In this document: positions 4,561 to 60,763 of the stretch, in pieces
How the letters are laid out: the number at the start of each line of letters is the position of its first letter
Position numbering within the stretch: the stretch's first letter is position 1
Assembly: GCA_024707015.1 (NCBI GenBank)
Contig: JANGFR010000002.1
Coordinates: 1 to 64,000 of the forward strand
Length of the DNA: 64,000 nt
Source of the DNA: Candidatus Culexarchaeum yellowstonense
GTDB taxonomy: Archaea > Thermoproteota > Methanomethylicia > Culexarchaeales > Culexarchaeaceae
Direction of reading: 5' to 3'
Notes under the pieces: model-generated
The model's database searches: none
What the model was told of the DNA's origin: nothing
Seen by the model: only the letters and a program-made list of their open reading frames with translations
Program-made: the position numbers and the translations under genes

Positions 4561-4924
4561 TCTTGAACACCTCCAATACAAATTTCAACATCTCCTCAAC
4601 CTCCCCCTTCTCATATCTTCTAGCTAGATATCTAGCTCCAATATATGCATCTTCAATTTTCGTTAACATTACAATGTTTCTACCCTCAAATAGCATATCC
4701 AATCCACCTGAAATATTCGATAATAATCTTAAGAGCTTAATTAATGAGCATGTTCCCAGATACGCTCCAGTTTTCATAAGCAACTTATACTTCACAATCA
4801 ATTGACAATACTGTTCTATGTTGAAAGCTGCGAGATCATAAACTCCTTTAAGGAATAATTCTTCAGCATTCCTTAGGAAGGATTCTGCACGTTCCCTTAA
4901 AATTTCAGCTTCCTCAAAACTCAC
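4541..4924 (-). CDS. HEPN-domain protein, toxin partner of a HEPN-MNT pair
   Basis: The 127-residue all-alpha protein has the typical HEPN start (RERAESFLRNAEELFLKG.YDLAAFNIEQ) and the C-terminal AYIGARYLARRYEKGEVEE helix of the PF05168-like group. It is the first gene of a two-gene unit with the MNT protein. The RNase-type Arg-x4-6-His motif of ribonucleolytic HEPN toxins is not visible; the segment reads RYLARRYEK with no His. This variant may therefore be a non-nuclease member. The start is GTG at 4924. Confidence 0.8.
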   Translation of the reverse strand: MSFEEAEILRERAESFLRNAEELFLKGVYDLAAFNIEQYCQLIVKYKLLMKTGAYLGTCSLIKLLRLLSNISGGLDMLFEGRNIVMLTKIEDAYIGARYLARRYEKGEVEEMLKFVLEVFKNVIERI

Positions 4925-4989
4925 TTCAAATCAATAGAAAATCTTGAGGTCAAAATTAATAAATGCATTTCTTAATGATGTGGGAAGGT

Positions 4990-5715
4990 TTATTGAGCTT
5001 TCCTCAGCATTCTCTTATACCATACGAACCATGGGTTATCTATGAACCCTATAATGTTCTTGCTTACGATCTGCCCAATTATCAATGGTATTATTGGCAT
5101 TTCACCGTAAAATGCTAGTGTAACGAATATTACGCTATCGAGGGTTAGATCTACAATGTCGCTTACGCTGGAGCGAAGCCATATGTATGGATTTATGGAT
5201 GCATCATGCTTAAACTTATTCTCCCTATCAATAAACATGTTCTTCAACGTTGAGAATACTATTGCATCTATGTTTGAGCATATTAGGAATGATATCCATG
5301 ATGCTGCAGTTATCCTTATGCTTAGGCTGAATATGGATTTCCATGCATCTTCATATTGGAAGAATGGTGCTGGCGTTAATGTGTTCACCATTGCTATGAA
5401 TATTACCAGTAGAACTTGAGTTATGAAGGCTATCATTATTGCTATGTGTGTGCTCCTTCTACCATAAACTTCATTTATCATATCAATAACTTGAGCTATG
5501 AATGGATATATGAATACGGCTGCAGGAGCATAGAAGCCTGTGAATCCAAGATCGAAGTATATTGGTCTAGAGGCAAGGATCTGTGATGCTGCAAGGTATA
5601 TGACGTAGAAGCTTGTTAATGCTGAGAAGCCATGTTGGGGGTAGCGTTTAACAATCCATGTGGATGCATATGTAACTATAGTTAAACTAACAAACCAGTA
5701 GATCCAAACCAGCAT
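4990..5715 (-). CDS. VUT/YhhQ-family transporter, probable queuosine/archaeosine precursor importer
   Basis: This six-helix integral membrane protein belongs to the VUT family (PF02592, YhhQ), characterised in bacteria as an importer of queuosine precursors; archaeal members probably import 7-deazaguanine bases for archaeosine. Diagnostic stretches are YIPF-like AVFIYPFIAQVIDMINEVYGRR, the loop Ser-Ser-Val-Ser-Asp with LTLDSVIF, and QIVSKNIIGFIDNP. The ATG at 5715 is preceded by GGTGAT at optimal spacing; the longer reading from TTG at 5727 would begin inside that site. Fourteen bases separate it from the upstream RHH/zinc-ribbon gene, so the two are probably one operon. Confidence 0.85.
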   Translation of the reverse strand: MLVWIYWFVSLTIVTYASTWIVKRYPQHGFSALTSFYVIYLAASQILASRPIYFDLGFTGFYAPAAVFIYPFIAQVIDMINEVYGRRSTHIAIMIAFITQVLLVIFIAMVNTLTPAPFFQYEDAWKSIFSLSIRITAASWISFLICSNIDAIVFSTLKNMFIDRENKFKHDASINPYIWLRSSVSDIVDLTLDSVIFVTLAFYGEMPIIPLIIGQIVSKNIIGFIDNPWFVWYKRMLRKAQ

Positions 5716-5729
5716 GAAAATCACCAAGG

Positions 5730-6047
5730 CTACTTAATCCTACCACCAAGTAAATCCTCGTAAATCCTCCTCATATGGAATACAGCCACAGCAGTCTCCT
5801 CACTCAAACCACACCTACAAGCCCCACAATGTGGGCATATCATCCAACCGCACTTCGCACATACATCAGCATCCCTAGCCTTAAACTTCCCACCACACTT
5901 GAAACAGTAGAATTCAGGTTCGGAGAAGAATCTCAAAAAGTTCTCTATAACCCTAGACAATGGTATACCCCTCTCACGGGCAACATTCTTAGCATTAATT
6001 AAAACATCTCCATCAACAGTTATGGTCAACTTAACCTTACCAGACAT
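5730..6047 (-). CDS. Ribbon-helix-helix protein with C-terminal double zinc ribbon
   Basis: The N-terminal 42 residues read as a ribbon-helix-helix DNA-binding fold (VKLTITVDGDVLINAKNVA then GIPLSRVIENFLRFF). After a linker come eight Cys at about 48, 51, 63, 66, 71, 74, 77 and 79, enough for two zinc sites, and a short acidic/basic tail. The ATG at 6047 makes the RHH strand begin immediately; the upstream GTG/ATG options translate promoter-like DNA. A tandem AAATACGTAT element sits directly before the start. It is probably an autoregulated repressor of itself and the downstream VUT transporter gene. No specific orthologous family is recognised. Confidence 0.72.
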   Translation of the reverse strand: MSGKVKLTITVDGDVLINAKNVARERGIPLSRVIENFLRFFSEPEFYCFKCGGKFKARDADVCAKCGWMICPHCGACRCGLSEETAVAVFHMRRIYEDLLGGRIK

Positions 6048-6053
6048 ACATAC

Positions 6054-6076
6054 AAATACGTATAAATACGTATTTA
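6054..6076 (-). promoter_or_regulatory. Tandem AAATACGTAT operator overlapping the RHH gene promoter
   Basis: Two exact copies of AAATACGTAT lie head to tail at 6054-6063 and 6064-6073. Each contains the palindrome ATACGTAT and the array runs into TTTAAAT. It lies 7-30 bases before the ATG at 6047, where TATA box and transcription start should be. Ribbon-helix-helix repressors commonly bind tandem short palindromes cooperatively, so self-repression is the simplest reading. Confidence 0.6.
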
Positions 6077-6141
6077 AATCTAACCAAGACATAAACTATG
6101 GGGAAAATTTAAAGTAAAGGGGGAGACTAATGTAATATGCC

Positions 6142-6939
6142 ATGAAATCGAGGGTTATCATAGTTGAGGGGGAGGACATAATAAATAGAACTGTAAACAC
6201 ATTAAAGCATCTAAAACCGGAAATCCCAAAGAGTGGAGGTAGAATTCTAATAAAACCAAATCTAGTTGAACCCATGGGTAAAGATTCTGGAGCAGTAACT
6301 AGACCTGAAACCGTTGAGGGAGTAATAAGATTTCTCATGGAGATAGGAGATTATGAGATTATCGTGGGTGAGGGGTCTGCATACCCAGACACCATGCAAT
6401 GCTTCAAAATAGCGGGATACGAATACCTAACAGAGAAATATAATGTTAGACTTATGGATTTAAACCACGGGAATTACATTAAGGTTAATGGAGAATATTG
6501 GAGTTTTGAGGTAAATAGTGTTTTGAGTGAAGTGGATTACATAATTTCAGTGGCGGTTTTAAAGGAGCATGGACTCGCAGAAGTAACGTTGACACTTAAA
6601 AACATGATGGGCATACTTAAACCAGCACCAAAAATACCAGTAAAGGAGTACATACATGCAGAGGGGGATCCAGATATATGGGCATTAAGACTATGCGATC
6701 TAGTTAAAGCATTCAAACCAAACCTTGCAATAATAGATGGAACAACTGGAATGTTCGGCTCACATATACATGGGAAACTTAAGAAGTTAAACTTAACAAT
6801 TGCAAGTGAAGATCCAGTAGCCTGCGACTCAATTGGAGCTAAAATATTGGGACATGAGAAAGTTAAACACATCAGGTTAGCAGGTATGAAGGGGTTGGGG
6901 GATATAAATCCAGAAGTATTAAAGATAAAGATAGATTAG
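6142..6939 (+). CDS. DUF362-domain protein
   Basis: The 265-residue protein matches the DUF362 family: ILIKPNLVEP near residues 35-44, AVTRPETVEGVIRFL, a GEGSAYP segment, TLKNMMGI, and a C-terminal DPVACDSIGAKILG. DUF362 proteins are often fused to ferredoxin domains; this one has no Cys cluster, so it is the minimal form. The biochemical activity is not established. A purine-rich GGGGGAG precedes the ATG. It is not obviously linked to its neighbours, although rpiB follows on the same strand after 94 bases. Confidence 0.8.
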   Translation: MKSRVIIVEGEDIINRTVNTLKHLKPEIPKSGGRILIKPNLVEPMGKDSGAVTRPETVEGVIRFLMEIGDYEIIVGEGSAYPDTMQCFKIAGYEYLTEKYNVRLMDLNHGNYIKVNGEYWSFEVNSVLSEVDYIISVAVLKEHGLAEVTLTLKNMMGILKPAPKIPVKEYIHAEGDPDIWALRLCDLVKAFKPNLAIIDGTTGMFGSHIHGKLKKLNLTIASEDPVACDSIGAKILGHEKVKHIRLAGMKGLGDINPEVLKIKID

Positions 6940-47104: not shown

Positions 47105-47677
47105 TTGAAGGTTCACCATAAAACATTAATACTTATATTGGTATCCATGCTGACAAGCTTTGTATATGCTTCGGTATTCACATATAACCCGCTAACCATC
47201 AATATTTCGCCAGTAGCACCCCCAATAATATTCAAATATGGCGCAAATACTGGTAAGGCTGACTTGCGTGGAACGACGATAACTGCAAATATTAGTAATA
47301 CAAGTACAAGTTTAACATTGACACTGCATCCAACATATCAAGAAGTGTATTATAAGGATGTTGCGAGAATAAACAACACTGATACTAATGTATACTATAT
47401 AATGATCAGAGTTGAACGTTCATTAACAAATACGAAAATCACTAATGCAACATTATATTTGTATGATGTTAGTACAAATCGAGCCATGCTTAAAGTAAAT
47501 TTACTTACAACTGAATCTACGAATTGGTTTCCAATGAATGGTAAAGCTGAGTGGAGAATTGATGTTGTAATTAAGATAGATGAAACTGGTGGAAGTTACA
47601 ATACTGCACCATTCACAAGTGATTCAGCGACATTAAAGCTAATCTACAGTACACAGAACGTTGAGAGTCCACCATGA
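47105..47677 (+). CDS. Secreted beta-rich protein, first subunit candidate of a fibre module
   Basis: The 190-residue protein has a signal peptide (about 1-22) followed at once by VFTYNPLTINISPVAPPIIF and then a Thr/Asn-rich beta-sandwich-like domain ending in SATLKLIY. The mature N-terminus with a YNPL..N.SPV.PPIIF motif is shared with the next protein. Size, secretion and linkage to a dedicated signal peptidase recall TasA/camelysin and the archaeal bundling pilus subunit AbpA, but sequence similarity to these is not demonstrable here. The start is TTG. It overlaps the next gene by four bases. Confidence 0.7.
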   Translation: MKVHHKTLILILVSMLTSFVYASVFTYNPLTINISPVAPPIIFKYGANTGKADLRGTTITANISNTSTSLTLTLHPTYQEVYYKDVARINNTDTNVYYIMIRVERSLTNTKITNATLYLYDVSTNRAMLKVNLLTTESTNWFPMNGKAEWRIDVVIKIDETGGSYNTAPFTSDSATLKLIYSTQNVESPP

Positions 47678-48870
47678 GGACATTTAAGAGTTGTTATACT
47701 AGGAAATGGGGATTATTTGCAATAATATTGTTGATGCTTTCAATTTGGCATTTGAGGGTGTTTTCATCAACATATGTTTATAATCCATTGAATTCAACTT
47801 TTAATCCTGTTCAGCCGCCAATAATATTCTCGAATCCAAATAATCCAAATGCAACTGTAATTTTGGGTGAAGCATATACATCGGCAAACGTAACTTTAAC
47901 GAGGAATTTGGCTTTAAACGTGTATGATGAGGATGAGAATGGAACTATATATCTTGAGGGGCCAGCGCCAAACATCGAGCTACCTCCGGGAGGATACTAT
48001 AATGTTTCATGGAGCGTACATATGGCAAGCTTTGAAGACCCTAAGGGAAATGGCACTATGATTATTGACTTAAGATTCTACAATGGAAGTGACTATTGTT
48101 TGGCAAGTATAATATACTATGGAAATTATGTTAAAGCAGCTTTAGGATTATTATGGGGGATAAATCCGGCCTCTGAAGGACAGAGCTCACCGTATACGAT
48201 AAACCCATATCAGAAGCATGAATTTAAAATTAGGGTGGAGAGGTCTATTGATGGATGCCTATTGACTTTAAAGTGGTTTGTTGATGGAGTAAACATTTAC
48301 AGCTACCAATACAATATTACGGAGATAACATATGTATTTATTTGGGAATCATATTTTGGATGGCTTAATAAAGAGAAGCCAGAATTGAAGTTTGAAGCTT
48401 ATTTGGATGATGTACATGCTGAGGGGGTGTATAATGCTTCAGAAAACTTTGAGGATGGTGTGGATGACGTATTCATAATAGGTGAATCCACAGGATATAC
48501 TGGCAAGAGGATATCGTACTATACGTACCCACAAAAATTCTTATTGGCATTAAATAATTATGGGGTTTACAATGTGAGTTTGGAGTTTGAATCGATCAAT
48601 GGTGTAATACCATCAGGGTTTAATGCATCCATATGGATAAACTTGAATAGTCAATACAGTAGGTCAGCGAAGGTGGTTAATGGGTTGATTGTGGAAAATC
48701 GGACATCAAAGATTCTTTTGCAGCAAAACTCGATATTAAATCTGTACGTGAATGTTACGGCGACATATCCAGCCAGTTGGAATGTGACGTTGAGGATATT
48801 ATTCAAGTATGAAGTTGAAGATTACATTACGGTAAGTTACCCATTGAGGGTTGAGGCGGGTTATGGATGA
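47674..48870 (+). CDS. Larger secreted protein sharing the N-terminal YNPL motif
   Basis: The 398-residue protein has an N-terminal signal/anchor (about 10-30), then TYVYNPLNSTFNPVQPPIIF, the same motif as in the preceding protein. The middle (about residues 90-280) looks like a concanavalin/LamG-like sandwich (DGCLLTLKWFVDGV, YNASENFEDGVDD), and the end is another beta domain. No membrane anchor is seen at the C-terminus. Coupling by ATGA overlaps on both sides places it in one operon with the 190-residue protein and the signal peptidase; it may be a tip or accessory fibre subunit. Confidence 0.7.
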   Translation: MRTFKSCYTRKWGLFAIILLMLSIWHLRVFSSTYVYNPLNSTFNPVQPPIIFSNPNNPNATVILGEAYTSANVTLTRNLALNVYDEDENGTIYLEGPAPNIELPPGGYYNVSWSVHMASFEDPKGNGTMIIDLRFYNGSDYCLASIIYYGNYVKAALGLLWGINPASEGQSSPYTINPYQKHEFKIRVERSIDGCLLTLKWFVDGVNIYSYQYNITEITYVFIWESYFGWLNKEKPELKFEAYLDDVHAEGVYNASENFEDGVDDVFIIGESTGYTGKRISYYTYPQKFLLALNNYGVYNVSLEFESINGVIPSGFNASIWINLNSQYSRSAKVVNGLIVENRTSKILLQQNSILNLYVNVTATYPASWNVTLRILFKYEVEDYITVSYPLRVEAGYG

Positions 48871-49979
48871 AGCGGATGACATTAAAGATGCTCTTGGCAA
48901 TCATATTGCTCATGCCATTGATTGGTAGAGTGTTGACTTTACCGGTAACAATAATGTTGTATACTGGTTCAAGTATGAAGCCAACAATGAATTGTGGAGA
49001 CCTCATAATATGCGTATCAAGGGATTATTTGAAATATGATGTTGGGGATATAGTGGTATGCATAATTGAACCCATGCAGTATATTGCGCATAGAATTGTG
49101 GAGTTGAAGGGAGACTCCGTAATAATGAAGGGTGATAACATGCAACTACTAGATCCACCGATGGATAGGGATTACATTAAATATGTGGTTATAGCAGTAA
49201 TACCGTTGGAATTATGGTTTCCAATAGTTGTGGCTATTGCAATGGTATACATGGCTTTAAGGGGGAGGAGGGTTATTGCAAATGTGAGGGGGGGTAAGGG
49301 TTTTGAGGTAATGGTGTTTGAGGTGTCAATATTGATTAGTATAGCAGCAGTATCGCTTACGCCTATAAATAGCACTCCAATACAATCAGCAATAGCTAAA
49401 CCATCAGTAAATTTGATGGAGGTGAAAATTCTAAGTGTATCGGAGGTTATGGTTAGGTATAGCGTGCAGTATGCTTATCCAATAAATGTTGAGGAATGCG
49501 TATTCAAGATAGCGAACAAAACAATATATTCAAAGGCGCACATAAGTGACGATCACACAGTAATAGTTGAAACGCCATTGGAAATCTATCAATTGGCATA
49601 TGGGAATAGGGTTGATGATATAAATTTCAAATTGAAGGTGAGGTTTGATAAGGGGGTTTTGGAGGGGAACTATACCTATAAAATAAACTGGAGGAAATTG
49701 AACATATACGTTGAGGGTGAAGAGCTTGTAATTGAAAATCCAAATTATGTGAGTATGAATGTAAGCTTGATAAAGGTGATATATATGATGATGGATAATG
49801 CTGGATTCACGAGAATAATGAAAACGGATTACATGGAACCGATAACTGTGAATGCATTATCAAAACAAGTTTTGAAGATTGGGAGGGAGGGTGAAGCCAT
49901 CGGTGCGTATGTGGAGTTGAAATATGAGTTTCTGGGGGGAGAGGTGTTTGAGAGGAAATACATCAAATTCACAGGATAA
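48867..49979 (+). CDS. Archaeal type I signal peptidase (S26B) with C-terminal ectodomain
   Basis: The catalytic region has GSSMKPTM with nucleophile Ser36, IAHRIVE with His75 (Ser-His type, as in ER and archaeal peptidases), and MKGDN. A first helix lies at 8-26 and further hydrophobic segments near 110-130 and 150-170. The remaining 190 residues are beta-rich and appear to be extracytoplasmic, an addition not present in ordinary archaeal Sec11-like enzymes of about 150-200 residues. It overlaps the preceding gene (ATGA). It probably processes the two secreted proteins encoded before it, like SipW with TasA. Confidence 0.85.
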   Translation: MKRMTLKMLLAIILLMPLIGRVLTLPVTIMLYTGSSMKPTMNCGDLIICVSRDYLKYDVGDIVVCIIEPMQYIAHRIVELKGDSVIMKGDNMQLLDPPMDRDYIKYVVIAVIPLELWFPIVVAIAMVYMALRGRRVIANVRGGKGFEVMVFEVSILISIAAVSLTPINSTPIQSAIAKPSVNLMEVKILSVSEVMVRYSVQYAYPINVEECVFKIANKTIYSKAHISDDHTVIVETPLEIYQLAYGNRVDDINFKLKVRFDKGVLEGNYTYKINWRKLNIYVEGEELVIENPNYVSMNVSLIKVIYMMMDNAGFTRIMKTDYMEPITVNALSKQVLKIGREGEAIGAYVELKYEFLGGEVFERKYIKFTG

Positions 49980-50532
49980 AACACTAAGAAAACTTACGCT
50001 ATTATCTCTAGTGATCATGGTATTGAACGCCATATACAAGCTAACTTTAACTTTAATCCCAAAATACACTTTTAGTGGACCATTGAGTGAAATCATAGCA
50101 ATAGCATACAGTAGACTAGAGTATTATGGATCTCCAATAGAGGTAGACCAATTAAAATCCATAGCAACACTCTCAATCCCACCAATAACACTATACACAT
50201 TTGAATTGATAGCATCATCAACTATGATTGTGATGCTGTATAGGGGGAGGGAAGCTTCAACAATCATAAAATTGATGTTCGGGTTAAGTTTAGCCTCAAT
50301 GATCATGTGTGGATTGATAATTGGATTGACGAGGAGCCTAGACATTATAGCACAGCAACTTATCATAAACAATAATTATGTATCAAATGCTGGAATCATA
50401 AAGTTTGGAGAAACAAGAATGGAGATAGCAACGATTGCAATTATGCTTGCAAATCCAACCATTATGATATTCAGTGAAACAATTCAAATGGTAAGTTCAG
50501 CAATAAATTATGTCAAAATCCATGAGCAATAA
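49924..50532 (+). CDS. Four-helix membrane protein at the end of the peptidase operon
   Basis: The 202-residue protein has about four transmembrane segments (near residues 25-43, 85-103, 113-133 and 165-188). It overlaps the signal peptidase gene by 56 bases if ATG 49924 is used; the first 20 residues are polar, so a later start is possible but no better site is visible. No family is recognised. Its position suggests a role in assembling or anchoring the secreted proteins of this operon. Confidence 0.6.
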   Translation: MSFWGERCLRGNTSNSQDKTLRKLTLLSLVIMVLNAIYKLTLTLIPKYTFSGPLSEIIAIAYSRLEYYGSPIEVDQLKSIATLSIPPITLYTFELIASSTMIVMLYRGREASTIIKLMFGLSLASMIMCGLIIGLTRSLDIIAQQLIINNNYVSNAGIIKFGETRMEIATIAIMLANPTIMIFSETIQMVSSAINYVKIHEQ

Positions 50533-53068: not shown

Positions 53069-53896
53069 TTAAACGGTAACTTTTGATCTAACGATTATCC
53101 CCCTATAATCTGTGACGGTAATGAGGATGGTGTATGGTGGGGGTGGAGGGTTTCTTATGGTGGCATTATATGTGCCCATGCCACAGTATGTTAAGCTCCA
53201 AACATTCCTTTGAATACCATTAATGGTTATGTTTAAATTGTTTGTTGATAGGTTGTTTACTGGGCCCATTTCACTATTCAATATGAATATTATTGACATT
53301 TCATTTAGGTTTCCATCTACGATTATCTTTGTTATGTTGAGTGATAGGAGTGCGGTGTAGGAGTTGTTCCAGCCATAAACTTTACTTCCAATTATGTCTA
53401 GGGATATTGATGCATGGGAGGCTGATATGCTGTATGGTTTATCCCAACTGCAATTAAATATTGAGCCACGTTGTATAGTGAAGCTTGAAACGTAGATATT
53501 GTAAAATGTGGTTGAGCTTCCATATTTGAATTGAAGTGTATATGTGGATGCAGGGGATATTAACGATCCGGATGGGGATATGGATATTTTCAAGCTTAGT
53601 GGGGCATATGCTAAGGAGAATGCAAATTTCCATGTTTCAATATTAATTTTCGCATTGTCCTCAGAATCATCATGATCTCCAGTTTTAAGGTAGCTGGCTG
53701 TGAAATTTGCCAAGGAAGCTTGAAGAATACGTTTGAAATCTCTATCAACATTAATTATTAAGTGCGTCCAATCTGAATCCTCAACTGTTTTTGGGAATAT
53801 TGAGACTTTATAGGAGGTTATAGCTGAAAGTATTATTATGCCACTTAAAATTACTGCAACTATTATGGGGAGCTGCCCCTTAGAATTCAAATACAT
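53069..53896 (-). CDS. Pilin-like secreted protein of the type IV pilus operon
   Basis: The N-terminus carries a class III (PibD-type) signal: NSKG cut before QLPIIVAVILSGIIILSAIT, then a hydrophobic pilin helix. About 240 residues of beta-rich, Ser/Asn-rich domain follow, much larger than a normal major pilin, with an Ig-like C-terminal part (YNATIRNPPPPPYTILITVT). It is the last gene of the operon, coupled directly to the preceding gene (stop and start separated by no spacer). It is a probable minor pilin or adhesin. Confidence 0.75.
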   Translation of the reverse strand: MYLNSKGQLPIIVAVILSGIIILSAITSYKVSIFPKTVEDSDWTHLIINVDRDFKRILQASLANFTASYLKTGDHDDSEDNAKINIETWKFAFSLAYAPLSLKISISPSGSLISPASTYTLQFKYGSSTTFYNIYVSSFTIQRGSIFNCSWDKPYSISASHASISLDIIGSKVYGWNNSYTALLSLNITKIIVDGNLNEMSIIFILNSEMGPVNNLSTNNLNITINGIQRNVWSLTYCGMGTYNATIRNPPPPPYTILITVTDYRGIIVRSKVTV

Positions 53897-54361
53897 TCAC
53901 CCCTTAACCCTAATTAACGTTAACACCAACATGTATATTCGACCATTACTTGACGTGAAAATATAAACTGCAGAGCCGGATTCAGATATATCCCTAGCGA
54001 AGTTTCCTGGAATATTGGTTATTGCAAAACGATTGAGTATCCTCATGGCTAATGTTGATTCATTTATTGGGGTAAACTCGTATATGGTCATGTTAAAGTA
54101 AACTGTTTTAGGCAGTAGAGTTCCAAGTAGTAGGGAGATATCGGATTCCCATTTACCAGTTTGATTTGAAAGTATGTTGGAGATTGTTGGAACAGATATT
54201 TCGTCCAGTAAATTGAAGGCCATATCATCAAGCTCCTCATGGCTATATATAATACAAGAACTTGGAATCCTCTGAATATTTATGGCGATGGTCATGGAGC
54301 CTATCACGAGAATCGCAGTGATTAAAGCTTCGATAATTCTAAATTGCCCAGAGCAATTCAA
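53897..54361 (-). CDS. Minor pilin-like protein
   Basis: With the TTG at 54361 the protein starts MNCSGQFRIIEALITAILV: a short leader, a G-Q processing site and a hydrophobic helix, fitting the archaeal prepilin pattern. GGAGGG lies six bases before that TTG, at the end of the preceding gene. The longer ATG start at 54385 would add eight residues. The 120-residue remainder is a beta-rich domain (YFNMTIYEFTPINESTLAMR). It overlaps or abuts both neighbours in the pilus operon. Confidence 0.68.
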   Translation of the reverse strand: MNCSGQFRIIEALITAILVIGSMTIAINIQRIPSSCIIYSHEELDDMAFNLLDEISVPTISNILSNQTGKWESDISLLLGTLLPKTVYFNMTIYEFTPINESTLAMRILNRFAITNIPGNFARDISESGSAVYIFTSSNGRIYMLVLTLIRVKG

Positions 54362-54363
54362 AT

Positions 54364-55527
54364 TCAACCCTCCACAAGCCGCCATAATGTTAAATCAAAA
54401 TAGTATAGGTAGCCGGAAACAGATACGATCCTCCTAAGATGTACCCCCCTAGCCGCAACCCCTCCAGTAGACCCCTGATTCCATCCAATCTCAACCCCAT
54501 TATAAGACCTTCTAGCCACGCAGAGCTTATATGAACCCCTATTCTTAACCACAAAGAACAATGCCACCGTATCATCATCTAAACCGTCAAGTTCAAACTT
54601 ATAGTATGGTCTAGCTCCACCTTGAGGTGTTATGGGTAGAAGTTTACCATCAAAGAGTACTGTGGATTCTAAAGCCTTCGGCGTAACCGCTAAAGCTGCT
54701 GGACATAGATGTATAGCTCCACCACCAGGATTATTCGGCTTACCCTTCTTGGTGGTTATGTTTTGGGGGTTGAAATCGTCATCCAAATGTCCAACGTAGA
54801 GAGTATCCCCAATAATCACCCCAAAATTGGTTTCACCTTCAAAGGAACTGTATACTGTGGACATGCCATAGAAGTCAACATACACCACCAAGAAACCTCC
54901 AATGGCACCATTGGAATCCACTGGTGTGAAATTCAAAACAGCCTTCCCATTATAATCGGTATAAACGTTTTCCACAACATCCTCCAAATAGGTTATCTCA
55001 GTACTCCCACTAACATATACAGTTACATGCACTGCCCTAATCCTAGCATTAATTACTGGTAGATTATCATAGGTTTTAACATAAACTTCATAGGTGAAGC
55101 TTGAAGATTCCTGAATTGAAACATTCAATACTGGAGTAAGCTTAATGGATAAACCATAAACCCCACGTAAACCCAAAACATTCAATATATCATTCAAACC
55201 TATACTTGTAAGATTTGTGTATTCACTTAAATTTGGCTCGAAAACCCTCACCAACTTATTTATATCCAAACTATATGGGTTAGCACCTTTAAGTGCAAAA
55301 CCAAAACTCTTCAAAGAATCTATTGAAGTGGCTGAAACACCCCAATCTGGAGGATCCCCTGTATTTAAAAGCAATTGATTCATGATCTTCTCAGCTTCAA
55401 TCTGCAACTGACCCTCAGATAGATATGTAGCCCTATTCAATGATACTGGAATGAAGTATGTTAATGTTGAAGATACAAGTAAAACAATTATTAGAGCGGA
55501 AAACACGTATTCCATCCACTCATTCAA
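54364..55527 (-). CDS. Membrane-anchored accessory protein of the pilus operon
   Basis: The 387-residue protein has one N-terminal helix (residues 8-26, EYVFSALIIVLLVSSTLTYF) without a clear Gly processing site, then an amphipathic stretch with NQLLLNTGDPPDWG, a motif often seen in archaeal class III-signal-bearing proteins, and a large beta-rich ectodomain including a Gly-rich loop near 278-285. Its start overlaps the preceding gene by four bases. It is probably an extracellular or pseudoperiplasmic component that helps pilus assembly or adhesion. Confidence 0.7.
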   Translation of the reverse strand: MNEWMEYVFSALIIVLLVSSTLTYFIPVSLNRATYLSEGQLQIEAEKIMNQLLLNTGDPPDWGVSATSIDSLKSFGFALKGANPYSLDINKLVRVFEPNLSEYTNLTSIGLNDILNVLGLRGVYGLSIKLTPVLNVSIQESSSFTYEVYVKTYDNLPVINARIRAVHVTVYVSGSTEITYLEDVVENVYTDYNGKAVLNFTPVDSNGAIGGFLVVYVDFYGMSTVYSSFEGETNFGVIIGDTLYVGHLDDDFNPQNITTKKGKPNNPGGGAIHLCPAALAVTPKALESTVLFDGKLLPITPQGGARPYYKFELDGLDDDTVALFFVVKNRGSYKLCVARRSYNGVEIGWNQGSTGGVAARGVHLRRIVSVSGYLYYFDLTLWRLVEG

Positions 55528-56039
55528 CCCCCCATCACCCCCAAACTAACCTTAACAACCCCTCCATCCTTAACAACCCATACAACCAAATCCTTAGCAC
55601 CACAAAGAACCTTCGGGGAATAGTATATCTTAACACCATTAAAATTCAAAATTCCACTACCAAACTCAAAAACCACTTTACATGAAGATGTCTGTATTGG
55701 AATCAGTGAAGAGGAGTTAAACCAACTCCAACCAATAATATCAACCTCAACATAATAGAATTTACCAGAAGCAGTTAAGCTAATGGTATAACTTTTACCA
55801 AGAATATTTGATGGAATATCCAACCCCTTAACCATAATCATATGCTCAGAACCCGTACTTGAAGCAACACTGATAAGATCTGATATATCCATGGCAATTC
55901 TATGCGATATTTCAGATGCAAGTATCCTTGCAGTATCCCTAAGGCTAATTAACTGCATATTCTGAGCAAAACCAATGGAGATGAATATCAATATTAGTAG
56001 GGAGGAGAAGGAGATTACATGCATAACAGCAGACGACAT
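55524..56039 (-). CDS. Pilus-operon protein with single N-terminal helix
   Basis: With the ATG at 56039, preceded by GGGGTGAT at four bases, the 171-residue protein starts MSSAVMHVISFSSLLILIFI, a membrane helix, then a helical segment (LRDTARILASEISHRIAMDI) and a beta domain. The longer reading from 56093 would translate the end of the previous gene region and its ribosome site. No named family, but the layout repeats that of the other pilin-like genes of the operon. Confidence 0.68.
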   Translation of the reverse strand: MSSAVMHVISFSSLLILIFISIGFAQNMQLISLRDTARILASEISHRIAMDISDLISVASSTGSEHMIMVKGLDIPSNILGKSYTISLTASGKFYYVEVDIIGWSWFNSSSLIPIQTSSCKVVFEFGSGILNFNGVKIYYSPKVLCGAKDLVVWVVKDGGVVKVSLGVMGG

Positions 56040-56055
56040 TACAATCACCCCACAA

Positions 56056-56832
56056 CTAGACTGTTGATATTTCCACCTCCACAATAGCAACATTCAATAC
56101 TGCTGGAGCAGTTATGCTTTTACAATCCACCTTCAAACCATCAATGAATAATTCAATGCTAGATGGCTTTTCAATGAATAATGTGTTCAATGTTACCCCC
56201 TTACCATAAGCCTTAACATTAATACTATCAGAACCCACCGTTAAGCCAACTCTAACCCTAACCAAAACAAGCTCATAAACAGTGACGGTAAACCCCCTAC
56301 TCCTCAAATACAATTCACCCTTATCCACAACCCTAACACAACCACCACGGAGTATTATGGATGGAAAACCAGATGTGGAAGCCAATTTAACAGTTACAAG
56401 ATGGGAGAATTCATCCATAAATATGCCGGAACCTTCACCCCTAACATACTCCTCAGACACAGAAAACCTAACACCACAAGTATACCTCAAACTTGAAGTA
56501 TAAACATCAACAATCTTAGAGGAATTTAAGAAAACCTCAATATGGGTATCATCTTTGAGGAAATCAACTCGCCCATACCTACAATTAAACTTCACATAAC
56601 CGGAAGAATAAACTCTACTACCAACCTCCTCAATAATATCAGCTAATATTAGCATAGAATCCTTAATACCCTCGAATTCAGCTTGAGCAGCTTGAATCTC
56701 CATAAAATTCATAGCCACACTGGTGGAGATTATGGTGATTAAGATTATGGTTGAAGCGATAACCAGATTTCCAATAACCTCAGAAACCCCCTCAGAAACA
56801 TGACTCCCAAAATGCGCCTTCAAATCCCTCAA
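56056..56832 (-). CDS. Type IV pilin/FlaG-like protein
   Basis: A class III-like N-terminus with EGVSEVIGNLVIASTIILITIIST matches the archaeal pilin/FlaG-type hydrophobic helix (G-V-S-E-V-I-G is a common archaeal pilin start). The rest (about 220 residues) is beta-rich with VRVGLTVGSDSINVKAYGKG. It is immediately after the platform gene (four-base ATGA overlap). It may be a minor pilin or stator-like protein of the system. Confidence 0.72.
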   Translation of the reverse strand: MRDLKAHFGSHVSEGVSEVIGNLVIASTIILITIISTSVAMNFMEIQAAQAEFEGIKDSMLILADIIEEVGSRVYSSGYVKFNCRYGRVDFLKDDTHIEVFLNSSKIVDVYTSSLRYTCGVRFSVSEEYVRGEGSGIFMDEFSHLVTVKLASTSGFPSIILRGGCVRVVDKGELYLRSRGFTVTVYELVLVRVRVGLTVGSDSINVKAYGKGVTLNTLFIEKPSSIELFIDGLKVDCKSITAPAVLNVAIVEVEISTV

Positions 56833-58643
56833 CCCCCCATCAGAATACTACTCAAATTAATTGATGAGGAGAATAGGATTGCAAGTAGATCCACTAGAGT
56901 TAAGAGTATGGCGTGTATGAATCCTCCAGAAACCCTACCACCACCAATCTTCCCAGCAGCTAAACCAAGAGTATATGTTTGCAGGGGTATTGGCGTCATG
57001 AGTATTTTGATCATTGAAACCATGGGGAGGGAAGTTCCAGCAACAGCCATCATACCATTCATGAAGGATAAGAAGGTTAAACCAACCAATATCAACAATA
57101 TAGCGCCAAAATATGGGACAAGCATCAGCGGCTTCAATAGAGAACGCTTCTCACTCTCAATTAAAAGTGAAGTTTCAGAAAACCTAGCCATAGACTCAAG
57201 GGTTTCCACAGACCCCCCACCAATCTCTATGGTATCAACTAATAGGAATAGATTAACGGATACAAGCCAATCATCTAAACTGGCGCAAATTTCATCAAAA
57301 ACCTTACGTAGGGGGAGCCCCCAAACAATCCCCCTCCTAACCCTATCCAAAATCCTATTAAGCCTCCCATACCTCCTATATGAAAGCATAACTAAACACT
57401 TCTCAGGGGGTAAACCACTCTTCCTAGTTTCAACAAGATCTCTAAGGAAACTTGCCAATCCAGACTCGTAGGAAGTCTCCACCCTGGAAAGATAGAGGTC
57501 ATATATTGCCCCTGGAATGCTGACTACAATTAGAGATAGGCATAACATTATTGCTGGGGTAAAACCAATATTTCCAGCCCTATATTCAGCAAACCACTCA
57601 ACAAACTTCACTATTGGGATTAGTGGTTCAATTATAGACATATTGAAGACGTAGGGGAGAATTATTAGGGAGAGGGATAGCAGGAGTATTGGGAGGGAGG
57701 CTATGAAGGGGATATATCTCTTCAAAACCTTCTCAGGATAACTTATCTGACTGGAATCTGCCAAGTATATGAATATGACGTTTATGAGGGGGAGCAAAAT
57801 GAAGGAGAAGAGGAAGAAGGTTTCACCACTAATAGCAGGCATCCCCATAACGTCACTCATGGATACTGAGGCTATGAAGAAGAGGTATAATCCAATACCA
57901 CCAAGACATACAACCGTGATGAGAGCCTCCATTAGAATTCCAAGCCTCTCAGCAACAGATTTAACCCTAGAAAGCATCTCTTGGAAAAGCATTTCAGTTC
58001 TACGATAAACATAATTGGCAACATCGCCACCACTCCTTAAGGTGGAAACATAACCTGAAATAAGCTCCTTAAACCCCTTAACATTAAGCTTACCAGCAAA
58101 ATCCTCAACAATAAATATGGGGGTGTCACTTCCAACCATAGATGAAACTTCAATCCTATTAACATACATACTGGTCCTATGGAAAAGTTTAGATCCAATA
58201 AGCCTCTTAAGACCATTATACAAAGGCAAACCACTAGAGACTATGACCGTTAAGTATGCTGAGACGTAGGGCAATTCAAGTTCAAAATCATAAACCCTAT
58301 TCTTAGAAGTTATTATGGGGAGAATCAAACCAAATATGAATACAATTAATGGTAGAAGGGTGAAGGATATTATTAATGGTATTGGGAGGAAGGATAATGG
58401 GTAAAGCAAATGCATAATATATTGTGGAAGATCAATACCTGAAACTGCAACAAAAATTAGTAGGATAAATGGAATTGATGCTGATAGGGATAGGATTGAT
58501 GCAAAAAATATTATTGAACCATAAACTGACGGGTGAAGCTTGAAAACTGAAACCTCAATCCATTTATCAAGCCAAGGAAATGCAGATGCAATTCTATCAC
58601 CAATAAACCCAAAATGATCATAGCAGAAACTCTTAAAATCCAC
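56829..58643 (-). CDS. Type II/IV secretion platform protein with two T2SF domains (TadC/FlaJ-like)
   Basis: This 604-residue integral membrane protein is the platform of an archaeal type IV pilus. It has two T2SSF-type halves: first near residues 90-230 (YVSAYLTVIVSSGLPLYNGL, YVSTLRSGGDVANYV) and second near 390-540 (LASFLRDLVETRKSGLPPEKCL, LFLLVDTIEIGGGSVETLESMA), each followed by hydrophobic helices. It starts directly after the ATPase stop. The double-domain design is typical of archaeal pilus systems. Confidence 0.88.
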   Translation of the reverse strand: MDFKSFCYDHFGFIGDRIASAFPWLDKWIEVSVFKLHPSVYGSIIFFASILSLSASIPFILLIFVAVSGIDLPQYIMHLLYPLSFLPIPLIISFTLLPLIVFIFGLILPIITSKNRVYDFELELPYVSAYLTVIVSSGLPLYNGLKRLIGSKLFHRTSMYVNRIEVSSMVGSDTPIFIVEDFAGKLNVKGFKELISGYVSTLRSGGDVANYVYRRTEMLFQEMLSRVKSVAERLGILMEALITVVCLGGIGLYLFFIASVSMSDVMGMPAISGETFFLFSFILLPLINVIFIYLADSSQISYPEKVLKRYIPFIASLPILLLSLSLIILPYVFNMSIIEPLIPIVKFVEWFAEYRAGNIGFTPAIMLCLSLIVVSIPGAIYDLYLSRVETSYESGLASFLRDLVETRKSGLPPEKCLVMLSYRRYGRLNRILDRVRRGIVWGLPLRKVFDEICASLDDWLVSVNLFLLVDTIEIGGGSVETLESMARFSETSLLIESEKRSLLKPLMLVPYFGAILLILVGLTFLSFMNGMMAVAGTSLPMVSMIKILMTPIPLQTYTLGLAAGKIGGGRVSGGFIHAILLTLVDLLAILFSSSINLSSILMGG

Positions 58644-60248
58644 TTAAATACCACCCCCACCCTTGGATTCAGCCTTCAAAAGACGTAAGCCCCCAACATA
58701 AGACTTATAGTAATTGCGAATAGCCTCCGCAACACTCTTATGTGAAAGAACACCCCTACCCAAAAGATCCCTCAAATATCTTGCCCTAACATCAATCTCT
58801 GAGATCAATTCATCCATGGAAAACCCTGTTTTACGACTTATCCTACCAAGAATGAAGCTATCCTCAAAATTAACGTTGAAGAATCCTTCAGGAACCCACT
58901 CAGCCACCACAACCTCCTCACCATCAGAATTCAACTCCCAAATAGACCTAACCCTCCTCACACTCTTATGACCACCAATCTTAACATCAGTCATACGTTC
59001 AATGTGAAGCCAAACATTCATAAGTGGAAGGTAAACTTTAGAGATATTCATTGGGGGAGAGGTAAGCCTCTTAACAGCATAATCCAAACTATCAGCATGC
59101 ATAGTGGACATACCACCATGACCAGTGGCCAAAGCTTGAAACAATACATAAGCCTCCTCACCCCTAATCTCACCCACAATAAGATAGTCAGGCCTATACC
59201 TAAGTGAAGTCTTAACCAAATCAAATAAACGTATAGACCTAGCCCTAACACCGGAAAACTCAAGCTCCTCCCTACTAACAAAGGAAACCCAATTCTCATG
59301 TGGAATATTTATCTCAGCAGTCTCCTCCACAGTGACCAGCTTAAGCTCAGGTCTAACAAGACTTAAAATGGCATTGAGCATAGTGGTCTTACCAGCACCA
59401 GTACCACCAAGAACCATAACACTCATCTTATTCTCAACAACAAGCCAAAGATAAGCTGCAATCCACTCATTAACAGTACCCATGGAAATCAATTCCACAA
59501 TAGAAAATGGATTCTCCCTAAACTTCCTAATACAGAAGGAACTACCAAAATTGGACACCTCACGCATAAAGGTTGCTGCAAGCCTATGCTTACCTGGAAG
59601 AGTGGCATCAACAACTGGATTAGCACTGGAAACATGCTTACCAGCAAGATGGGAAAGCCTAATTATGAAATCATCAAGAGCATCCTCATCCAAGAAAACA
59701 ATATTAGTGGGCAAACTCTCAAAATCCCTATGATAAACATAAACAGGGACACCAACACCATTACAAGATATATCCTCAATATTGGGATCCAACATCAAAG
59801 GATGAATAACACCAAACCCTGCAAGCTCCCTAGCAACATAATAAAGAATTTTACGCTTAGAATCCTCAGATGGGGGGCGAAGCCTCCTATACCTAGACAT
59901 CAAAGCCTCAGCCTCAGAAACAACAAACTTCACCTTATCAACATCACCCCTAGGGGGATCCCTCTCCCTAACAATAAATGAGATAATCCTATCAAGAACC
60001 CCCCTCTCAAGGAAGGTTAAAGGCTCCTCCAAAGCATAATACTTAACCTCACCAGAAACATCCTCAGCCACCACAACCCTAGCATAAGGCTCACAAACCC
60101 AATAATCCCTCAAAACATGGGAATCCTCAGGCAAAGGATAAACCATAACATCCCTAACAGGAGAAATACTGGATAATCTACGCTTAAATCCAGAAAAGAC
60201 ACCACTAAACTTAAACCTACCAATATTCAAAGCAGCCACCCCACACAA
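58644..60248 (-). CDS. Type II/IV secretion system ATPase of the pilus (TadA/FlaI/VirB11-like)
   Basis: This assembly ATPase has 534 residues. Walker A GGTGAGKTT is near 279-288, the Asp box VTVEETAEI, Walker B YLIVGEIRGEEAYVLFQAL and the His box ATGHGGMSTMHADS follow. The N-terminal region has IHPLMLDPNIEDISCNGVG as in TadA/FlaI proteins. The annotated TTG start at 60248 is uncertain; TTG 60230 behind GGGGTGG is a credible alternative. It powers extension, and perhaps retraction, of the pilus encoded in this operon. Confidence 0.93.
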   Translation of the reverse strand: MCGVAALNIGRFKFSGVFSGFKRRLSSISPVRDVMVYPLPEDSHVLRDYWVCEPYARVVVAEDVSGEVKYYALEEPLTFLERGVLDRIISFIVRERDPPRGDVDKVKFVVSEAEALMSRYRRLRPPSEDSKRKILYYVARELAGFGVIHPLMLDPNIEDISCNGVGVPVYVYHRDFESLPTNIVFLDEDALDDFIIRLSHLAGKHVSSANPVVDATLPGKHRLAATFMREVSNFGSSFCIRKFRENPFSIVELISMGTVNEWIAAYLWLVVENKMSVMVLGGTGAGKTTMLNAILSLVRPELKLVTVEETAEINIPHENWVSFVSREELEFSGVRARSIRLFDLVKTSLRYRPDYLIVGEIRGEEAYVLFQALATGHGGMSTMHADSLDYAVKRLTSPPMNISKVYLPLMNVWLHIERMTDVKIGGHKSVRRVRSIWELNSDGEEVVVAEWVPEGFFNVNFEDSFILGRISRKTGFSMDELISEIDVRARYLRDLLGRGVLSHKSVAEAIRNYYKSYVGGLRLLKAESKGGGGI

Positions 60249-60289
60249 AAAAAGGGGAAGTGATTTATTATGGGTAAAGACCTAAACAT

Positions 60290-60763
60290 CTATGGCAAAG
60301 TCAATATCTTCGGATACTCCTTACCACCAGAAGTATGCAACTTCAACTCAAGACTCAAACCAGAAGTAGCAGTACTAGAACCCATCTTAGCATTTTCAGG
60401 AATAAAGACAGTGATAGTAGCCTCACTACCACTATTCAAAGAAATAGAAATAGACCCTGTAACATTATTACCATTTAACTTCGCACCAGACACATCTCGT
60501 ATCGTTACCCCGTTTAGTAGTATGTCATCTATTTTTGTGTCTGCAGATCCAGTGTTTTTAACTTTTAATGTTATAGTCCAGCCGTTAGTATCTGAAGAAA
60601 CTGTGGCGTATGTTATTTCAAGCTTTTCGAATCTAGTGTATAGGCTTGCAACTCCACCCATCCAGAAGGATATGGCGACAGCCACTGTTATCGTAACAGC
60701 TACTATGATCACTGTGGCTATCACAGGGCTTATACCCTTCCTATTAACATGTGTTTTACACAT
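60290..60763 (-). CDS. Archaeal type IV pilin (major subunit candidate)
   Basis: This is a pilin with a class III signal: NRKG followed by ISPVIATVIIVAVTITVAVAI, matching the archaeal Pilin_N (DUF1628-like) family. The 110-residue head is a beta-sandwich with VKNTGSADTKIDDILLNG and Thr/Ser-rich strands. GGAGGT lies nine bases before the ATG and a TATA box is at about 60800-60812, so this first gene of the operon has strong expression signals and is probably the main filament subunit. It ends 41 bases before the ATPase gene. Confidence 0.88.
   Translation of the reverse strand: MCKTHVNRKGISPVIATVIIVAVTITVAVAISFWMGGVASLYTRFEKLEITYATVSSDTNGWTITLKVKNTGSADTKIDDILLNGVTIRDVSGAKLNGNNVTGSISISLNSGSEATITVFIPENAKMGSSTATSGLSLELKLHTSGGKEYPKILTLP

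Follow-up and report, generated by a model that had tools for sequence, protein, structure and literature searches.

A four-gene operon in Candidatus Culexarchaeum yellowstonense

The window analyzed here, 64,000 nucleotides long, comprises positions 1 to 64,000 of the forward strand of contig JANGFR010000002.1 from Candidatus Culexarchaeum yellowstonense (assembly GCA_024707015.1; 1.7 Mb, 42 contigs), and it holds, at 47105-50532, four open reading frames (ORFs), all on the + strand, which we call P0001 to P0004 (Table 1). An initial annotation, made from the letters alone, had described two secreted proteins of 190 and 398 residues, an S26B signal peptidase with extra extracytoplasmic residues, and a four-helix membrane protein, and the ORFs lie where it had placed them. 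Its description of all four genes as coupled by ATGA overlaps holds for the first two junctions (47674-47677, P0001/P0002; 48867-48870, P0002/P0003) but not for the third, where P0003 and P0004 share a 56-base overlap (49924-49979) that is kept in two congeneric genomes. This arrangement is far beyond chance and recurs across dozens of genomes. We regard it as a probable thread-type fiber operon, new in composition and spread.

Table 1. Features of the P0001-P0004 operon (positions in the window)
Feature	Position	Strand	Remarks
P0001, small and putatively major secreted subunit, thread/Saci_0406 superfamily	47105..47677	+	TTG start, 190 aa; predicted signal peptide codons 1-22
P0001 mature N-terminal tail, residues 23-43, SVFTYNPLTINISPVAPPIIF	47171..47233	+	ungapped alignment to thread donor strand; PMC9715654
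P0001 head domain	starts at about residue 46	+	
P0002, large secreted subunit, P0001 paralog with insert	47674..48870	+	398 aa; ATGA overlap with P0001
P0002 N-terminal tail, residues 32-52, STYVYNPLNSTFNPVQPPIIF	47767..47829	+	
P0002 insert, residues 78-285, candidate binding (adhesin) module	47905..48528	+	low-confidence prediction; without Pfam match
P0002 C-terminal head part, residues 286-398	48529..48867	+	at family level homologous to P0001 head
P0003, S26B signal peptidase fused to ectodomain	48867..49979	+	370 aa; ATGA overlap with P0002
P0003 first helix and catalytic domain	48867..49202	+	Ser36 48972-48974, His75 49089-49091, Asp96 49152-49154
P0003 two further transmembrane helices (114-142, 145-163), K/R-rich loop between	49206..49355	+	
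P0003 extracytoplasmic tandem Ig/FnIII-like beta-sandwich domains, residues 175-370	49389..49976	+	
P0004, four-helix membrane protein	49924..50532	+	202 aa; in relatives fused to large subunit or to ectodomain

The small subunit is a distant homolog of the Sulfolobus thread subunit

P0001 has a hydrophobic segment at residues 7-25, with the tail following an Ala-Ser site, which fits a predicted Sec/SPI signal peptide, and it carries five N-glycosylation sequons. Neither P0001 nor P0002 matched any Pfam family at E<=1 (TasA/camelysin included), and P0001, P0002, and P0004 searched against Pfam and NCBIfam gave nothing except weak chance matches (SpoIIGA). As sole query against the named genomes, P0001 found no close relatives; an alignment was needed to detect them. 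A profile of 11 members, relatives of P0001, matched a single meaningful chain in the whole Protein Data Bank (PDB), namely 7pnb, and matched no TasA chain and no AbpA chain; the match to 7pnb spans the full length (E 0.032). This chain is the thread subunit Saci_0406 of Sulfolobus acidocaldarius, which is of the donor-strand type (PMC9715654, PMC11607397).

Since the 7pnb match is weak by itself, further tests of thread homology were made. In three genomes, Saci_0406 and the P0001 profile match the same genes. With the alignments of the two groups kept separate, hhalign related the small-subunit family to thread subunits, including Saci_0406, at a probability of 97.8% (E 1e-12, 190 columns); of the control pairs, drawn from the same loci, most gave 0.4-8%. 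Further, a hidden Markov model built only from threads (eight thread subunits from Saci_0406-related genomes) matched P0001 at E 2.8e-8, along with nearly all of its relatives. By these comparisons, the homology of P0001 to Saci_0406, though distant, extends along the entire protein.

The first 21 mature residues, each stretch directly preceded by an alanine, align without gaps (SVFTYNPLTINISPVAPPIIF in P0001, DVIYYYQGQITVGNVAPPMYF in the thread), and in threads this N-terminal tail strand completes the sheet of the neighboring subunit (PMC9715654). The YNPL..PPIIF motif, first read as a possible donor-strand or processing signal, therefore falls on the tail strand of a known fiber. Known thread members from Sulfolobales and Vulcanisaeta have an Asp start, a YYY motif, and a proposed Asp24-Asn57 isopeptide bond (PMC9715654). 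In P0001, mature position 1 is Ser (Ser, Ala, or Thr in near relatives) and not Asp, and in its group the YYY motif is replaced by F-x-Y-N/Y-P. As judged from its sequence, then, P0001 is outside the narrow published thread definition and inside a wider superfamily. Across loci, the mature protein begins with Ser, Ala, or Thr where the peptidase is present and mostly with Asp, Glu, or Gly where it is not, a difference that may reflect the cutter or merely lineage. Two further loci (L144:5941-10086 and L147:2826-6118) hold diverged subunit-like genes with different large secreted or membrane partners and are perhaps another branch of the family.

The large-subunit family combines a tail, an insert, and a head

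P0002, with 14 N-glycosylation sequons, is identical to P0001 at 13 of 24 positions in the tail region, ungapped, and the N-terminal 44 columns of the two families match at E 9e-9, in agreement with the shared N-terminal motif reported initially. The C-terminal 125 columns of the large-protein family match the small-subunit head at E 8e-9. Because both the tail and the C-terminal domain match the small family, the large protein is, at family level, a paralog with a thread-type tail, an insert of variable length, and a thread-type head. Its earlier description as a new element accordingly gives way to that of a thread-type subunit whose tail and head are separated by an added module; the P0002 in the window is a copy shortened relative to its family.

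In the structural model of P0002, confidence is limited to parts of residues 50-77 and 286-398. Among the best PDB matches of this model, AbpA (7ueg) ranks second (E 2.9e-3), together with several donor-strand pilins and fimbrial adhesins. Profile matches of the large protein in the PDB (influenza haemagglutinin and others) were judged to be chance. A lectin identity for the insert, suggested by reading its relatives, was set aside, as Pfam does not support it and the model is unconfident there; a binding (adhesin) role for the insert would be a guess.

The peptidase carries a two-domain ectodomain

P0003 matched PF10502 at E 8.7e-7 (above cut-off), TIGR02228 at E 1e-11 (just below its cut-off), and SEC11C by profile at 1e-10, as its first assignment to S26B would have it. 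Among 38 distinct relatives, all have His75 and Asp96 and 37 have Ser36 (the other has a gap there), so that P0003 is, on sequence criteria, an S26B signal peptidase with an intact Ser-His-Asp set. A short signal peptidase of the ordinary kind is encoded elsewhere in this genome, which makes P0003 an extra one. Its model (mean predicted local distance difference test, pLDDT, 86.5) comprises the catalytic domain, two additional helices joined by a basic loop, and two beta-sandwich domains; the latter span about 195 residues (175-370, pLDDT about 94), close to the 190 or so extracytoplasmic residues first estimated. In the PDB, this ectodomain model matched generic tandem Ig/FnIII domains (Robo3, RbmA, and the EbpB basal pilin), and a search of the PDB for sequence relatives of the ectodomain found none. 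A PapD-chaperone identity was considered and rejected, given that the matches are generic rather than to PapD in particular. In P0004, roughly four segments are hydrophobic, not all of them strongly, consistent with a four-helix membrane protein.

In other members of the class (L022, L023, L024, L025, and L028), secreted beta-rich proteins, of which some carry DUF11, adjoin or surround another kind of S26 fusion that has about eight helices at its N-terminus. These loci are possibly an independent fiber system with its own peptidase.

The module is conserved across Thermoproteota

Whether homologs co-occur with the peptidase had been raised at the outset as a test of the proposal. A hand tally from a table covered 33 loci in which a small subunit is clearly recognizable and no contig end is near; in 28 of them, across many Thermoproteota families, the long peptidase adjoins the small subunit. 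In the named genome records, it does so in 16 of 19, these 16 being the records with enough DNA beside a small-subunit gene; two of the remaining three end just past the subunit gene, and the third was matched via the large-subunit gene. A search with the ectodomain only, across 398 genomes, gave matches in 43, most of the places being already known and part of the profile. Seven new places had flanks, and a subunit gene was found there by profile in five, a similar secreted gene in one, and neither in one.

Gene order varies among lineages. Some have subunit, large protein, peptidase, and transmembrane (TM) protein, while nine loci have subunit, peptidase, and a TM protein fused to the large one (in L046, two ORFs share the large-subunit part). 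Three of the five exceptions to peptidase co-occurrence keep the ectodomain without the peptidase: in L139, the four-helix protein is fused to it, and in L140 and L141, a membrane-anchored ectodomain lies between the subunit and the four-helix protein. These ectodomains match the family by hhalign at E 1e-14. Elsewhere (L181:5185-6294, L182:4917-6140, and L185:4454-5686), the peptidase domain lacks Ser, His, and Asp, and the membrane helices and ectodomain are kept. Because the peptidase domain is dead or missing in some loci and the ectodomain and four-helix protein are retained, the ectodomain looks like the conserved core, and the two proteins together like the fixed part of the system; the same facts point to a catalytic part that is probably dispensable where another signal peptidase can serve.

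Contig C4 of the same genome carries the complete four-gene set once more, in diverged form (L039:4982-8738; G000:C4:40981-44738) and flanked by a serine-recombinase-like gene on one side and phosphate-transport (pst/PhoU-like) genes on the other. In genome G001, a 30-codon match to the P0001 5' end (C32:16466-16555, 97% identical) lies at the very end of its contig and is either a further gene copy or an assembly break.

Relation to Sulfolobus threads and to other donor-strand fibers

Beyond full-length small-subunit homology, the Saci_0406 thread cluster (saci_0404, 0405, 0407, and 0408) shares with our operon a Sec signal, a tail-then-head design, several N-glycosylation sequons, and further secreted and membrane proteins at matching positions. 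It differs, apart from the mature start and the YYY motif, in that the operon here has a full S26B peptidase fused to an accessory ectodomain and a large subunit that carries an insert. In thread-bearing genomes (Sulfolobales and related), the subunit has as neighbors a four-helix protein and a membrane protein, about 255 residues long, that contains two beta domains (Saci_0407/0408, either fused or split), and in some there is a large secreted protein as well. The gene order at L148 (subunit, ectodomain-like, TM, large) is that of Nezhaarchaeota-type loci, which suggests the hypothesis that the Sulfolobales accessory proteins are counterparts of the P0003 ectodomain, P0004, and P0002. Against the Saci_0407/0408-like family, the ectodomain reached at best a probability of 37% (E 2.5e-4, global alignment), which is not significant; position and the layout of one TM segment plus two domains do match. 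In the cluster at L110, where locus tags were assigned from gene order, a 442-residue secreted protein (4825-6153, - strand; Saci_0404) has an ATGA overlap with the next thread-cluster gene. Its thread-like tail start, ASVYYFFQ, fits a large subunit, with no significant homology to P0002 detectable.

With TasA-TapA-SipW of Bacillus subtilis (PMC9674648), the operon shares two secreted subunits, one of them putatively minor, a presumably dedicated signal peptidase, and a predicted donor-strand fiber, while differing in the absence of a detectable sequence relation to TasA, in the tandem Ig/FnIII-like ectodomain on the peptidase, and in the added four-helix protein. The AbpA bundling pili of Pyrobaculum calidifontis (7ueg) are similar in the donor-strand principle and in the weak fold match of the P0002 model; they differ in that the small-subunit profile does not match the AbpA chain. 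Bacterial chaperone-usher pili (type 1, Csu, and EcpA) likewise combine an N-terminal donor strand with an incomplete Ig-like head, and the P0002 model weakly matches their donor-strand pilins and fimbrial adhesins. In contrast to those systems, no usher and no PapD-type chaperone was recognized in the operon, and the P0003 ectodomain resembles generic tandem Ig/FnIII domains.

A candidate fiber with its own processing and anchoring module

We favor the reading, at a probability of about 0.78, that the operon encodes a thread-type extracellular filament, probably a stiff surface fiber, built on the donor-strand principle and equipped with a processing and assembly/anchor module of its own. P0001 would be exported by Sec; P0003, encoded alongside it, would remove the signal peptide after Ala22, and the N-terminal strand released in this way (SVFTYNPL...) would then fill the groove of a neighboring subunit, so that donor-strand complementation builds the filament. 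P0002, with the same type of tail and head and an inserted binding module, would be a less abundant subunit at one filament end, either a tip adhesin or a membrane-proximal base. The P0003 ectodomain and P0004 may together make up a platform in the membrane on which freshly cleaved subunits are held and the fiber is anchored or assembled. Polymerization, the coupling of cleavage to assembly, and the adhesive and platform roles are what we infer from this arrangement. A donor-strand fiber system with its own signal peptidase had been the central proposal of the initial annotation, and as an inference it is well supported by the thread homology and by a motif that corresponds to a known donor strand.

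Several points weigh against this reading. The model of P0002 has little confidence in its central part (pLDDT 21-37), none of its PDB matches is strong (best E 1.6e-3), and no lectin family was found in Pfam for the insert. Threads are proposed to have an Asp24/Asn57 isopeptide pair that P0001, with Ser at mature position 1, does not conserve, and the open groove of P0001 is a prediction from homology. Three approaches, none significant, failed to tie P0003 and P0004 by sequence to the Sulfolobales thread accessory proteins. The substrate of P0003 is deduced from gene adjacency, and the filament itself is a prediction from the genes.

One alternative, which we consider improbable, is that P0003 is an ordinary signal peptidase that sits in the operon by chance, its ectodomain being unrelated to fiber assembly. 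Sulfolobus threads form without a co-encoded peptidase, general signal peptidase I being assumed to act (PMC9715654), and some subunit loci have no peptidase, as this alternative would expect. Chance is difficult to reconcile, however, with co-occurrence in 28 of 33 loci, with an ectodomain that persists without the peptidase in L139-L141 and without the catalytic residues in L181, L182, and L185, and with a short signal peptidase encoded elsewhere in the genome. Quite improbable, in our estimation, is an adhesin or S-layer-associated complex, secreted or cell-bound, in which strand exchange would serve only to form hetero-oligomers of small and large proteins at the membrane, with no long filament. 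The fusion of the four-helix protein to the large subunit in several genomes would suit a membrane tether, and the designation of the small subunit as the major one is putative; nevertheless, the homology of that subunit to a known polymerizing protein covers its entire length, and L047 has two small-subunit genes side by side. Finally, a SipW-dependent fiber operon of TasA/AbpA type, with P0001 and P0002 as TasA family members and P0003 as the SipW equivalent, is very improbable: the layout resembles tapA-sipW-tasA (PMC9674648), as the initial annotation had noted, the peptidase weakly matches SipW (NF046067, E 1.9e-4), and AbpA is the second match of the P0002 model, but the nearest sequence relative is the archaeal thread (Saci_0406, 7pnb) and not TasA or AbpA (the initial annotation, too, had seen no clear sequence similarity to them), a search of the genome for PF12389 (TasA/camelysin) found no match, and other class members arrange their secreted beta-rich proteins around the different S26 fusion described above.

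Returning to the favored thread-type filament, a broader proposal can be put forward tentatively, and with rather less than even confidence: the P0003 ectodomain and P0004 might be the assembly and anchoring machine of archaeal threads, with cleavage by the attached peptidase freeing the donor strand where the fiber is held and so driving polymerization, and Sulfolobales might keep a peptidase-less, strongly diverged version of it (Saci_0407/0408 and the neighboring four-helix protein).

A neighboring pilus-like locus

Just downstream, on the minus strand at 53069-60763 of the window, is a type IV pilus-like locus with a secretion ATPase, a platform protein, and several pilin-like proteins. 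Two unrelated fiber systems, this locus and the four-gene set, thus seem to be neighbors.

Implications

Threads, thin fibers of about 4 nm, have been reported only in some Crenarchaea (Sulfolobales and Vulcanisaeta), with their assembly machinery stated to be unknown (PMC9715654; PMC11607397), and the open-licence papers that name Saci_0406 do not describe a peptidase-bearing module, although a description elsewhere is possible. The small-subunit family extends thread-type subunits beyond these lineages to Nezhaarchaeota, Brockarchaeota, Desulfurococcales, Fervidicoccus, and others. The recurring four-part module names candidate assembly and anchor proteins that can be put to the test in archaea amenable to cultivation. 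It also points to a simple way in which fiber growth, in cells that lack an outer membrane, may be controlled by a signal peptidase.

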